DNA of 64,000 nucleotides from Hespellia sp. (GTDB taxonomy: Bacteria > Bacillota > Clostridia > Lachnospirales > Lachnospiraceae). Below the pieces are notes generated by a model. That model was not told where the DNA came from. It did no database searches and saw nothing but the letters and a program-made list of their open reading frames with translations. Made by a program: the position numbers and the translations under genes. Numbering within the stretch: the stretch's first letter is position 1; every line of letters begins with the position of its first letter. Shown piece after piece: positions 11,263 through 29,169 of the stretch. The stretch is taken from positions 23,253 to 87,252 of the forward strand of contig JAAVXR010000016.1 in assembly GCA_022790755.1 (NCBI GenBank), in the 5' to 3' direction.

Positions 11263-11274
11263 TGGTTGGGAGGG

Positions 11275-11511
11275 GCAAATTGCACAAATTGTATTCGGTT
11301 TTGTTCCGGGTTTCGAATCTAAGAGGCTCTAAATGTTCTGGTGGAAGATATTATAGTACGGACGCAACCGCCTTCAATGCGCCGTCCGTGGCGCAGATCG
11401 GGCTTTCGCCGGCGTCCGTGCCGGCGAATTGCTGAGGACTGGCAGAACATTAAGAGTCTCTAAGATTCTTCACAGTCACCAAACCGAATACAATTTGTGC
11501 AATTTGCTGGT
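11275..11511. repeat. Giant imperfect hairpin element A (~237 bp)
   Basis: Left arm caaattgcacaaattgtattcggttt...gaatctaagaggctctaaatgttctg pairs with right arm cagaacattaagagtctctaagattc...aaaccgaatacaatttgtgcaatttg. Confidence 0.9.
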
Positions 11512-11564
11512 CGCAAGTTTGAAAATTTCTCATAGGATCTGCAGTATCTTGGAGATATTGGACT

Positions 11565-12831: not shown

Positions 12832-12913
12832 AAGCAACAATGTAGACGCTCTGGAAATATCCTGCCAAATGGACATCTGCATTCAGAATGCTAAAGAGGT
12901 TTATTTATAAAAT

Positions 12914-12929
12914 TAGTAAACGTTTACTA
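12914..12929. promoter_or_regulatory. Putative LacI-family operator
   Basis: Perfect 16-bp palindrome tagtaaacgtttacta. Confidence 0.7.
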
Positions 12930-12930
12930 T

Positions 12931-12997
12931 AAAGGTCAGCTGCCGAATAGGTAGCATAGGTTCAGGGATGCCAAATGTGCTCACATGCAGGTTTACC
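12931..12997 (+). repeat. Dispersed hairpin repeat copy E2
   Basis: aaaggtcagctgccgaataggtagcataggttcagggatgccaaatgtgctcacatgcaggttta. Confidence 0.75.
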
Positions 12998-13031
12998 TTT
13001 AATATTGGGAAAAAGGTGGTGATATGTAACA

Positions 13032-13170
13032 TTACCCAAAGGGTACACCGTAACACATGCTCCTATGGAGCTGGAAACCAGCAGAGCTGGTTTATAAGGG
13101 TTACCCAAAGGGCATACCGTAACACATGCTCCTGAGGAGCGGGGAACCAGCAAAGCTGGTTTATAAGGGT
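13032..13170 (+). repeat. Two-copy tandem repeat, ~69-bp period
   Basis: ttacccaaaggg(t/c)a(c/t)accgtaacacatgctcct..gag..ggaaccagca(g/a)agctggtttataaggg repeated at 13032 and 13101. Confidence 0.92.
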
Positions 13171-13176
13171 TCATTC

Positions 13177-13192
13177 AAGTAAACGTTTTCTT
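13177..13192. promoter_or_regulatory. Second putative LacI-family operator upstream of ThuA-like gene
   Basis: aagtaaacgttttctt resembles palindrome at 12914. Confidence 0.55.
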
Positions 13193-13238
13193 ATTATAAA
13201 TATATCATATAAAATTGAAAATATGGAGGAATGATAAT

Positions 13239-13994
13239 ATGAAAAAAGTGCTTATTGTAGGAGAATCATGGACTGTTCAGGAAACGCATGTAAAGGGATT
13301 TGACACGGTCGATCTGGGACGCTTGGAGCAGACGAGTGTAGACCCGCTGAGAAACGCTTTGACGAACGCTGGAATCGAAGTGGAATATATGCCGAGTCAT
13401 ATCGCACAATATAGTTTTCCGGATACGGTGGAAGCATTGCAGGAATACAGCGCCATCGCGTTGAGCGATATCGGCAGCAATACGATTATGATGGACCCCG
13501 TCATGCAGTTTCAGGGAGTCAGAAAACCAAACCGATTTCTGGCGCTCGTAGAATATGTAAAACAGGGCGGAGGTCTTGTGATGATGGGCGGATACTTAAG
13601 CTTTGCGGGAATTGAAAATAAAGCGCGTTACGCAATGACGCCGTTGGCTGAAATACTTCCGGTAAAAATGCTTCACTATGACGACCGTATGGAACACCCG
13701 GAAGGTATCTGTCCGGTTATGGTGAAAGAAGATCATCCGGTATTGAATGGTGTAACAGGAGAATGGCCCTGGTTCCTTGGATATAACAAAATCAAAGCGA
13801 AAGAAAATGCGGTTGAAATCGCGCAGATTGGCAATGAAGACACCTTCATGGCAGCAATGGAATATGGAGAAGGGCGTACCTTCGCGTTTGCATCCGACTG
13901 TGCAATGCACTGGGGCTCCAAAGAATTCCTCGCGTGGGATGGATATGGGAGAGTAATGCCAAACATCTTTAAATGGCTGGCAAAAGAGATTTAA
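13239..13994 (+). CDS. ThuA-like / cytoplasmic glutamine amidotransferase-like protein
   Basis: GLVMMGGYLSFAGIENKARY, FLGYNKIKAKENAVEIA, GRTFAFASDCAMHWGSKEF; RBS ggagga before ATG 13239. Confidence 0.75.
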   Translation: MKKVLIVGESWTVQETHVKGFDTVDLGRLEQTSVDPLRNALTNAGIEVEYMPSHIAQYSFPDTVEALQEYSAIALSDIGSNTIMMDPVMQFQGVRKPNRFLALVEYVKQGGGLVMMGGYLSFAGIENKARYAMTPLAEILPVKMLHYDDRMEHPEGICPVMVKEDHPVLNGVTGEWPWFLGYNKIKAKENAVEIAQIGNEDTFMAAMEYGEGRTFAFASDCAMHWGSKEFLAWDGYGRVMPNIFKWLAKEI

Positions 13995-14003
13995 GGGGGT
14001 GGA

Positions 14004-14242
14004 GCTTCGGCGTTCAAAGGCGCCGGTGGTTTCGAATTTTGGATGACACATACAGAAAAGGGTTTTGACTGCGCTCCATTGCACAGGACATTACGATGAG
14101 CCTTTGAAAGCGAAAATCGTGTTCAGCTTAGGCTTCCACGATTTTTAAGTCTCATCTCCATAGTGCAAAAGTCGCGCAGTCAAAACCCTTCTCTGTACGT
14201 TGTCCAAAATTCGAAACCACCGGCACCTTTGAACGCCGAAGC
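14004..14242 (-). repeat. Giant hairpin element B (~239 bp) with conserved internal boxes on minus strand
   Basis: gcttcggcgttcaaaggcgccggtggtttcgaattttgga pairs with tccaaaattcgaaaccaccggcacctttgaacgccgaagc; minus strand carries TATGGAGATGA, GAAGCCTAAGCTGAAC, TCATCGTAAT. Confidence 0.92.
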
Positions 14243-14352
14243 ATTGAACTTGGTTGGCAGAGATGGTGCAGAGTAGTGGGATAATCGCTTTCCCACCCGT
14301 TCAATGTGCGATGCATTTCATAGCAGGAATGAACAGTTATCGCCAGTAGACA

Positions 14353-14535
14353 GCGAAGCAAGGGCAGGGACCATCTCTATGCAGACAATGCAGGGGCGCT
14401 CTTTATGGAGGTGAAATCCACTACTTATGGAATCTTAGGCGTGAAGCCTCTGCTGAACGTCTTAGATTCCGTTAGCAGTTAGTTCACCGCAATTTTGCCC
14501 CGTCTGCATAGAGATGGTCCCTGCCCTTGCCTCGC
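14353..14535 (+). repeat. Giant hairpin element C (~183 bp) with same internal boxes on plus strand
   Basis: gcaagggcagggaccatctctatgcagac pairs perfectly with gtctgcatagagatggtccctgcccttgc; plus strand carries TATGGAGGTGA, GAAGCCTCTGCTGAAC, TCACCGCAAT. Confidence 0.92.
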
Positions 14536-14634
14536 GTCCCCACTTCGAGAAACTCAAAAAAAGAAATGAAAGCGCACATCCTTGCATTTTTTGCATATTT
14601 CTAATAATATATCATAAGAACTGGAGTTAGATTT

Positions 14635-14994
14635 ATGAGCGCAAAATTACCGTATTACATGACATATCCGATACCGCACTTGCTAGACGACGACTGGATG
14701 GAGCGAAGAGATTTTGCTTATATGAAGAATCTGTATCCAATGATGGTAAAGCGCTTGCTTCCTTATATAGAAGAAGAATGTGACCGCCTGGAATACAGAT
14801 GTAGTATGATGTATGATGAATATCCGGATAAGCTGCAGCTCATACTGTTACAAAGACGTATTGTGGAGAGAATCTTAAAAGAGGAGAACATCGAAGAACA
14901 GGAAATATTGGAAGATCTGGTTGCAGTATTGCTTTATCAGGAGATTTATAGAAGACGCTGTGATGATCGCCGGACAAGGCAAAAATACTATTAA
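14635..14994 (+). CDS. Conserved hypothetical protein (119 aa)
   Basis: Acidic helical ORF, codon usage and spacing consistent with a gene upstream of aroK. Confidence 0.65.
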   Translation: MSAKLPYYMTYPIPHLLDDDWMERRDFAYMKNLYPMMVKRLLPYIEEECDRLEYRCSMMYDEYPDKLQLILLQRRIVERILKEENIEEQEILEDLVAVLLYQEIYRRRCDDRRTRQKYY

Positions 14995-28943: not shown

Positions 28944-29050
28944 ATGAGTTGCCATCATCTTAAATTTTTGTGTACCAAAATTCTCTTGACATTCTCCTCA
29001 AATCAGTGTAAAGTTTTATATGTATAAAAATAATAAATAACAATCTTTCT

Positions 29051-29145
29051 CTTATTCAGAGCAGTGGAGATACATAGGATCTGAGAAGCTGCGGCAACCC
29101 CTTTGCAGGAAGGTGCTAACCTGAGCGAGTGAATCGAACAATAAG
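29051..29145 (+). ncRNA. SAM-I (S-box) riboswitch
   Basis: CTTATTCAGAGCAGTGGAGATACATAGGATCTGAGAAGCTGCGGCAACCCC...AAGGTGCTAACCTGAGCGAGTG...CAATAAG; P1 closes; upstream of metK. Confidence 0.93.
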
Positions 29146-29169
29146 AGGATTGGTTTATTTCAAAGATAA

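Follow-up and report, generated by a model that had tools for sequence, protein, structure and literature searches.

Among the described elements nearest to those considered here is TwoAYGGAY (Rfam RF01731), a family annotated in Rfam as cis-regulatory, which is known from gut Clostridia as a long hairpin whose core is conserved and whose outer stem is poorly conserved, and for which the protein CsrA has been proposed as a partner (PMC4333381). Bacterial MITEs are short, non-coding and present in many copies, and are bounded by terminal inverted repeats (TIRs) with target duplications, while the REP/REPIN elements associated with RAYT transposases are extragenic hairpins that partly form inverted pairs. 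At the level of DNA, template switching homogenises the arms of inverted repeats (PMC8604942, PMC8794818), which stay perfect despite changes in their sequence.

A reading of 64,000 nucleotides from a Hespellia genome (the whole stretch analysed, hereafter the window), made from the sequence alone, had singled out two adjacent giant hairpins, B and C, with unrelated stems and conserved, covarying internal boxes, and had proposed them as a candidate new family of structured elements. Our analysis indicates that B and C are copies of a previously uncatalogued family of hairpin elements from gut Lachnospiraceae, which is partly mobile. Leaving aside the cis-regulatory annotation, the CsrA proposal and template switching itself, this family shares the features just named with each of the above systems, its terminal repeats and target duplications being those of relatives of B.

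The hairpins B and C and their relatives

Hairpin B spans positions 14,004–14,242 on the minus strand and hairpin C positions 14,353–14,535 on the plus strand, just where the sequence-only reading had placed them. The inverted arms of B pair 14,004–14,057 with 14,189–14,242 (54 nt, 87%) and 14,048–14,074 with 14,174–14,200 (27 nt, 93%), and those of C pair 14,353–14,386 with 14,502–14,535 (34 nt, 97%). The predicted folding energies of −159.2 kcal/mol for B (z −17.0) and −118 kcal/mol for C (z −12.9), each compared with 200 dinucleotide shuffles, are like the arms far beyond chance. The conserved core of B (14,074–14,175, minus strand) scores 119.9 bits (E 4.5e-34) in cmsearch with a covariance model (R1) built from copies in its own genome, B among them, and that of C (14,384–14,505, plus strand) scores 144.1 bits with a model (R2) that likewise included the window copy in its building.

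The boxes of both hairpins also lie at the positions first given for them. In B, on the minus strand, these are the 5' box TATGGAGATGA (14,152–14,162), whose GGA lies on the other side of an internal loop from the 3' box; the apical box GAAGCCTAAGCTGAAC (14,121–14,136), a terminal stem-loop with a GA/GAA internal loop; and the 3' box TCATCGTAAT (14,090–14,099), which pairs with the 5' box. Their counterparts in C, on the plus strand, are TATGGAGGTGA (5' box, 14,404–14,414), GAAGCCTCTGCTGAAC (apical box, 14,443–14,458) and TCACCGCAAT (3' box, 14,484–14,493). The exact apical sequence GAAGCNNNNGCTGAAC is found at only two sites in the window, one in each hairpin. Outside its core, B has a 5' outer arm of unique sequence (14,176–14,242, minus strand), whose sole match in its own genome and in a genome of the same genus is its complementary partner, the 3' outer arm (14,004–14,073, minus strand). 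C is framed by conserved feet: a 5' foot, here GCCAGTAGACA (14,342–14,352, plus strand), which lies directly outside the variable arm and has the consensus GCCARYAACCA in two genera, and a 3' foot GTCCC (14,536–14,540, plus strand), which most C copies from two genera keep at that position.

A scan against Rfam 15 at gathering score, covering the window and 15 further loci, found no family over any B or C copy. The description of B and C as a new structured family is supported; neither hairpin matches the TwoAYGGAY covariance model at its cut-off of 43 bits. Near-matches to MIR856 and MIR7725 at B fell far below cut-off, and we read them as the resemblance of a long hairpin to microRNA precursor models. 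A simple scan of 13,900–14,700 detected no intrinsic terminator or sigma-70 promoter. Elsewhere in the window, an inverted repeat of 27 nt (81%, 249-bp gap) lies at 12,902–13,204 between the gene for a LacI-type regulator and the next gene, and a SAM riboswitch lies at 29,049–29,147 on the plus strand.

Searching the genome of the window by pattern recovered further exact copies of the apical box, sitting in long hairpins. The covariance model of the B core finds 16 copies above 100 bits in this genome, and that of C finds 6 C copies there and 19 C-like copies in one other genus (genome G027). Scanning GTDB genomes with the pattern yielded at least 118 contig stretches, almost all of them assigned by label to the Lachnospiraceae or to related Clostridia; the titles among the matches listed include Lachnospiraceae, Roseburia, Coprococcus comes, Blautia, Hungatella and Clostridia, and a small number of MAGs bear other labels. 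In Coprococcus comes several B copies are present. The search for further box-bearing copies that had been suggested as a check thus returned many across the Lachnospiraceae. Of 150 family genomes, 11 are hit by a model made from 111 copies, and five of these 11 contain 6 to 26 matches each; such a patchy, multi-copy distribution is the mark of a mobile element, and, like MITEs, the copies are dispersed, numerous and devoid of coding capacity. No core was found in plasmids, and the single pattern match in viral contigs lacked the surrounding element. The literature searched, which left most subscription journals outside its coverage, held no earlier description of the family.

B and C had been regarded as members of one family, and they are indeed related, but they are better described as two related sub-families, each multi-copy, than as a single alignment. 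At least two more types of related hairpin occur in their genome, namely TwoAYGGAY and a B-like type bounded by AATTGCGAAAC. The loci L261 and L262 (G000:C56 and C94) of this genome represent the latter B-like sub-family, with conserved arms ending in AATTGCGAAAC, and two copies of this type directly adjoin TwoAYGGAY elements, forming a recurrent composite of two hairpins.

Covariation in the core and complementarity of the arms

The core of about 100 nt consists of a stem, a GGA/GGA-type internal loop, a second stem, a GA/GAA internal loop and a small terminal loop. By inspection, its conserved unpaired positions are the GGA opposite GGA of the lower internal loop and the GA/GAA below the terminal loop. 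In a set of 106 distinct B cores, double-sided changes occur at 27 of 32 pairs, and 97.1% of the cells are paired as against 25–46% in slid controls. As this alignment was fitted to the covariance model, we also aligned 38 diverse B cores freely with MAFFT, and RNAalifold then gave 29 pairs, 26 of them with compensatory changes. The C core behaves similarly, with 30 of 36 pairs covarying and 93% paired against 30–46% when slid. The covariation accompanied by conserved boxes that had been noticed in just two hairpins is accordingly real. The apical box is kept in 111 aligned B copies, a conservation that is partly built in, because most of these loci were fetched with a pattern containing that box.

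The kinds of mispair in core and arms differ. In the B core, G-U outnumbers A-C by 50 to 15 (p 1.6e-5), two pairs at the model's edge being left out because one of them is mostly U-G throughout, and by 21 to 8 in the free alignment, with shared ancestry ignored in both counts; taken by column, the sign test is weak (14:4 columns, p 0.03; 11:4 in the free alignment, p 0.12). In C the bias is carried by a few constant G-U columns and amounts to 7:7 by column. The arms of three genomes, cut cleanly outside the core, show no strand bias, with 30 G-T and 33 A-C mispairs (163:157 overall, some core-edge positions included), and the difference from the core is significant (Fisher p 0.0009). The excess of G-U over A-C implies that selection acts on one strand of the core in its folded, single-stranded form; judged from its sequence, this strand would be either RNA or single-stranded DNA, as the bias fits both. 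Five B sites are common to different MAGs, and two more are duplicates within one MAG. At four of the inter-MAG sites the core is divergent at 7.2% of aligned positions, against 12.1% in 300-bp flanks that are partly coding (p 0.003), which speaks for constraint on the core after insertion, with one of the four (L192/L205) having a core less conserved than its flanks.

Outside the core the picture is quite different. The B arms of the window's own genome extend 21 to 75 nt beyond the core, with no second match in that genome; C arms are mostly 27–32 nt long and lie between the two feet; and the longest arms reach 130 bp. The arms of B and C had been called unrelated, which is correct and can be extended, as no two copies share their arm sequences: identities between copies and between shuffled arms are 0.56/0.53, 0.57/0.55 and, in the genome G132, whose arms keep a recognisable common pattern, 0.65/0.57, while cores reach 0.77–0.87. 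Within a copy, by contrast, the arms are 92–100% complementary in most cases. In G132, six of nine copies have arms 99–100% complementary over 79–104 bp, those of 79–88 bp being at 100%.

Since arms without strand bias can be perfect within a copy and nearly random between copies, homogenisation at the DNA level explains them without selection on the fold, and covariation in the arms is therefore no evidence of RNA function. The covariation of the core and the complementarity of the arms have different causes. To judge from the sequences, the arms of a copy apparently match because one arm has repeatedly been copied onto the other, and template switching could add to the apparent covariation of the core as well. 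The sequence-only reading had treated variation in the stems as a whole as pointing to selection on structure; in that form this part is not supported, as the strand-specific signal is found in the core only, while the new structured family, its boxes, the covariation and the option of a mobile unit are retained.

Some individual loci deserve mention. Arms of 79–104 bp that are perfect or nearly so occur in a bacterial chromosome at L271–L276 of G132, and such perfect arms are long enough for SbcCD-type instability to be expected. Longer C arms at L050, L065 and L069 (G027) seem to hold an inner foot-like ACCAGC or ACACAGC, as if they had been extended outward in layers. At L006 (1526–1588), a C copy has its 3' arm and foot repeated once in tandem, with a period of about 40 bp.

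Terminal repeats and the link with TwoAYGGAY

Many B copies among the relatives sit in elements of 232–237 bp bounded by ATTCGGGTGTCAAAAG and its complement, and further TIR-bounded elements measure about 310 bp. These TIR-bounded relatives are flanked by target duplications of 8–9 bp: the adjacent 9-mers agree on average at 5.43 of their 9 positions and cross-paired flanks at 3.76, the observed value being reached in 0 of 10,000 shuffles, and the excess is what target duplications would give. The copies of B, C and TwoAYGGAY in the window lack the terminal repeat ATTCGGGTGTCAAAAG, and no target duplication is visible at B or C; their own mobility is hence deduced from that of their relatives. 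The earlier suggestion of a mobile palindromic unit thus applies to the relatives, which are MITEs with TIRs and target duplications, and not directly to the window copies, which have neither. A match to a known MITE family had been named as an outcome that would speak against novelty; the relatives do belong to the MITE type, though to an uncatalogued one. No transposase with ATTCGGGTGTCAAAAG ends was found among the TIR pairs in the fetched loci. One wide TIR pair (L178, 1584 bp) was considered as an autonomous element, and was found on inspection to enclose an ordinary peptidase-like ORF and not a transposase.

A TwoAYGGAY-related hairpin lies 2.5 kb from B, at 11,266–11,516 on the minus strand; Rfam RF01731 matches it at 11,308–11,475 (122.8 bits against a cut-off of 43), and its additional outer arms extend beyond the Rfam model. 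Four TIR-bounded elements of about 310–410 bp in the same genome contain TwoAYGGAY. Through these shared termini the two families are linked, and TwoAYGGAY seems to be carried by elements of the same kind as B.

Competing explanations and known systems

We consider that B and C are probably dispersed copies of non-autonomous palindromic elements that combine a conserved folded core, arms homogenised at the DNA level and a mobility of MITE type. One branch of the family is mobile in the manner of a MITE, as the terminal repeat ATTCGGGTGTCAAAAG and the 8–9 bp duplications of the relatives indicate, and a DDE-type transposase would act on it in trans. The core, conserved and covarying over its roughly 100 nt, has one strand read as a folded single strand, as its G-U bias attests, and this strand may be an RNA bound by a protein of the host or of the element. 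The sequence of the arms is free, those of one copy being kept complementary presumably by template switching, with copies drifting apart and each remaining an almost perfect palindrome.

A host regulatory RNA, be it a cis leader, an element of a 3' UTR or a protein-sponge sRNA such as the CsrA sponge proposed for TwoAYGGAY, which had become multi-copy by chance, is an unlikely alternative that nevertheless accounts for the strand-biased core, the conserved GGA motifs at unpaired positions, the greater conservation of cores than of flanks at shared sites and the presence of csrA in the window's own genome (G000). The copies are intergenic, and in that genome the 3' end of B is mostly no more than about 30 bp away from a convergent gene's stop codon (longest-ORF calls, not annotation). 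Against regulation speak the patchy distribution and the mixed orientation of the neighbouring genes, which is if anything antisense (outside the own genome, both neighbours antisense at 29 B copies and both sense at 17; p 0.10). CsrA was not found in G013, G026 and G027, all carriers of B or C, and the sponge version was rejected on this account. The flanks of several copies, at L029 and the C loci of G027, are rich in C and poor in G on the sense strand and look rut-like by eye.

That the hairpins are REPIN-like elements, which a Y1/RAYT transposase would recognise at the hairpin foot and move as single-stranded DNA, is in our view quite unlikely. The conserved ACCA before and GTCCC after C hairpins would suit it, the G-U bias is compatible with single-stranded DNA, and RAYT-like Y1 transposase genes (259 and 252 aa) are present in G000 and G027. 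Another large hairpin lies less than 400 bp away from 9 of 34 copies in these two genomes, in all nine cases on the 5' side, with one such hairpin elsewhere in 53 kb of their loci. However, the other 25 copies have no partner, the target duplications of the TIR-bounded relatives are those of DDE transposition, and the 5-kb stretches around the two RAYT-like genes hold no copy of the element, for which reason mobilisation by RAYT was set aside.

It is very improbable that the arms arose from target flanks which an insertion captured and duplicated in inverted orientation, as their uniqueness in each copy, variable length and want of a second genomic match might suggest; we dropped this idea because the conserved feet of C copies lie outside the arms and those of G132 retain a common pattern, and at sites shared between MAGs the arms changed after insertion (about 15% of alignable positions differ and many more are unaligned) and are still paired. 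Arms serving as guides or immune memories against foreign DNA, to which the unique C arms of often 27–32 nt would lend themselves, are scarcely credible given lengths of up to 130 bp and the lack of any match of the tested arms in 50,697 phage records or elsewhere in their own genome.

The palindromic element of MITE type with a structured core is a new family of a known type, whose unusual property is the apparent homogenisation of its arms. A bolder view would unite B, C, TwoAYGGAY and the AATTGCGAAAC type in one superfamily, whose cores would be folded RNA or single-stranded DNA hairpins with a dedicated protein, and whose arms of 30–130 bp would be actively kept palindromic, with an identity for each copy, as a large dsRNA or cruciform device of the cell or the element; we regard this as speculative and rather improbable. 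The family adds a widespread, uncatalogued structured element to Lachnospiraceae genomes, and gives evidence that a mobile element carries TwoAYGGAY, an orphan family of Rfam. Its dozens of copies, with arms of 30–130 bp that drift between copies and stay near-perfect within them, amount to a natural experiment on template switching. They also caution against equating covariation with RNA function in long hairpins, where it can be generated at the DNA level; here the asymmetry of G-U and A-C mispairs is what separates the two.

Compared with the systems with which we began, TwoAYGGAY has the same terminal repeat on its elements in the window's own genome as the B-family MITEs, but its own core is made of two AYGGAY hairpin loops, and B and C fail its model. 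Bacterial MITEs differ from the family in that its core is structured and covarying, its arms are unique to each copy in several genomes, and B and C themselves show neither TIR nor duplication. REP/REPIN elements, which go with RAYT genes as two carrier genomes of the family have a RAYT-like gene, are much smaller and consist of a conserved short hairpin instead of a conserved core with variable arms, and it is the relatives of B that have target duplications. From the inverted repeats homogenised by template switching, finally, the family is set apart by arms of 30–130 bp, many dispersed copies and a constrained core.
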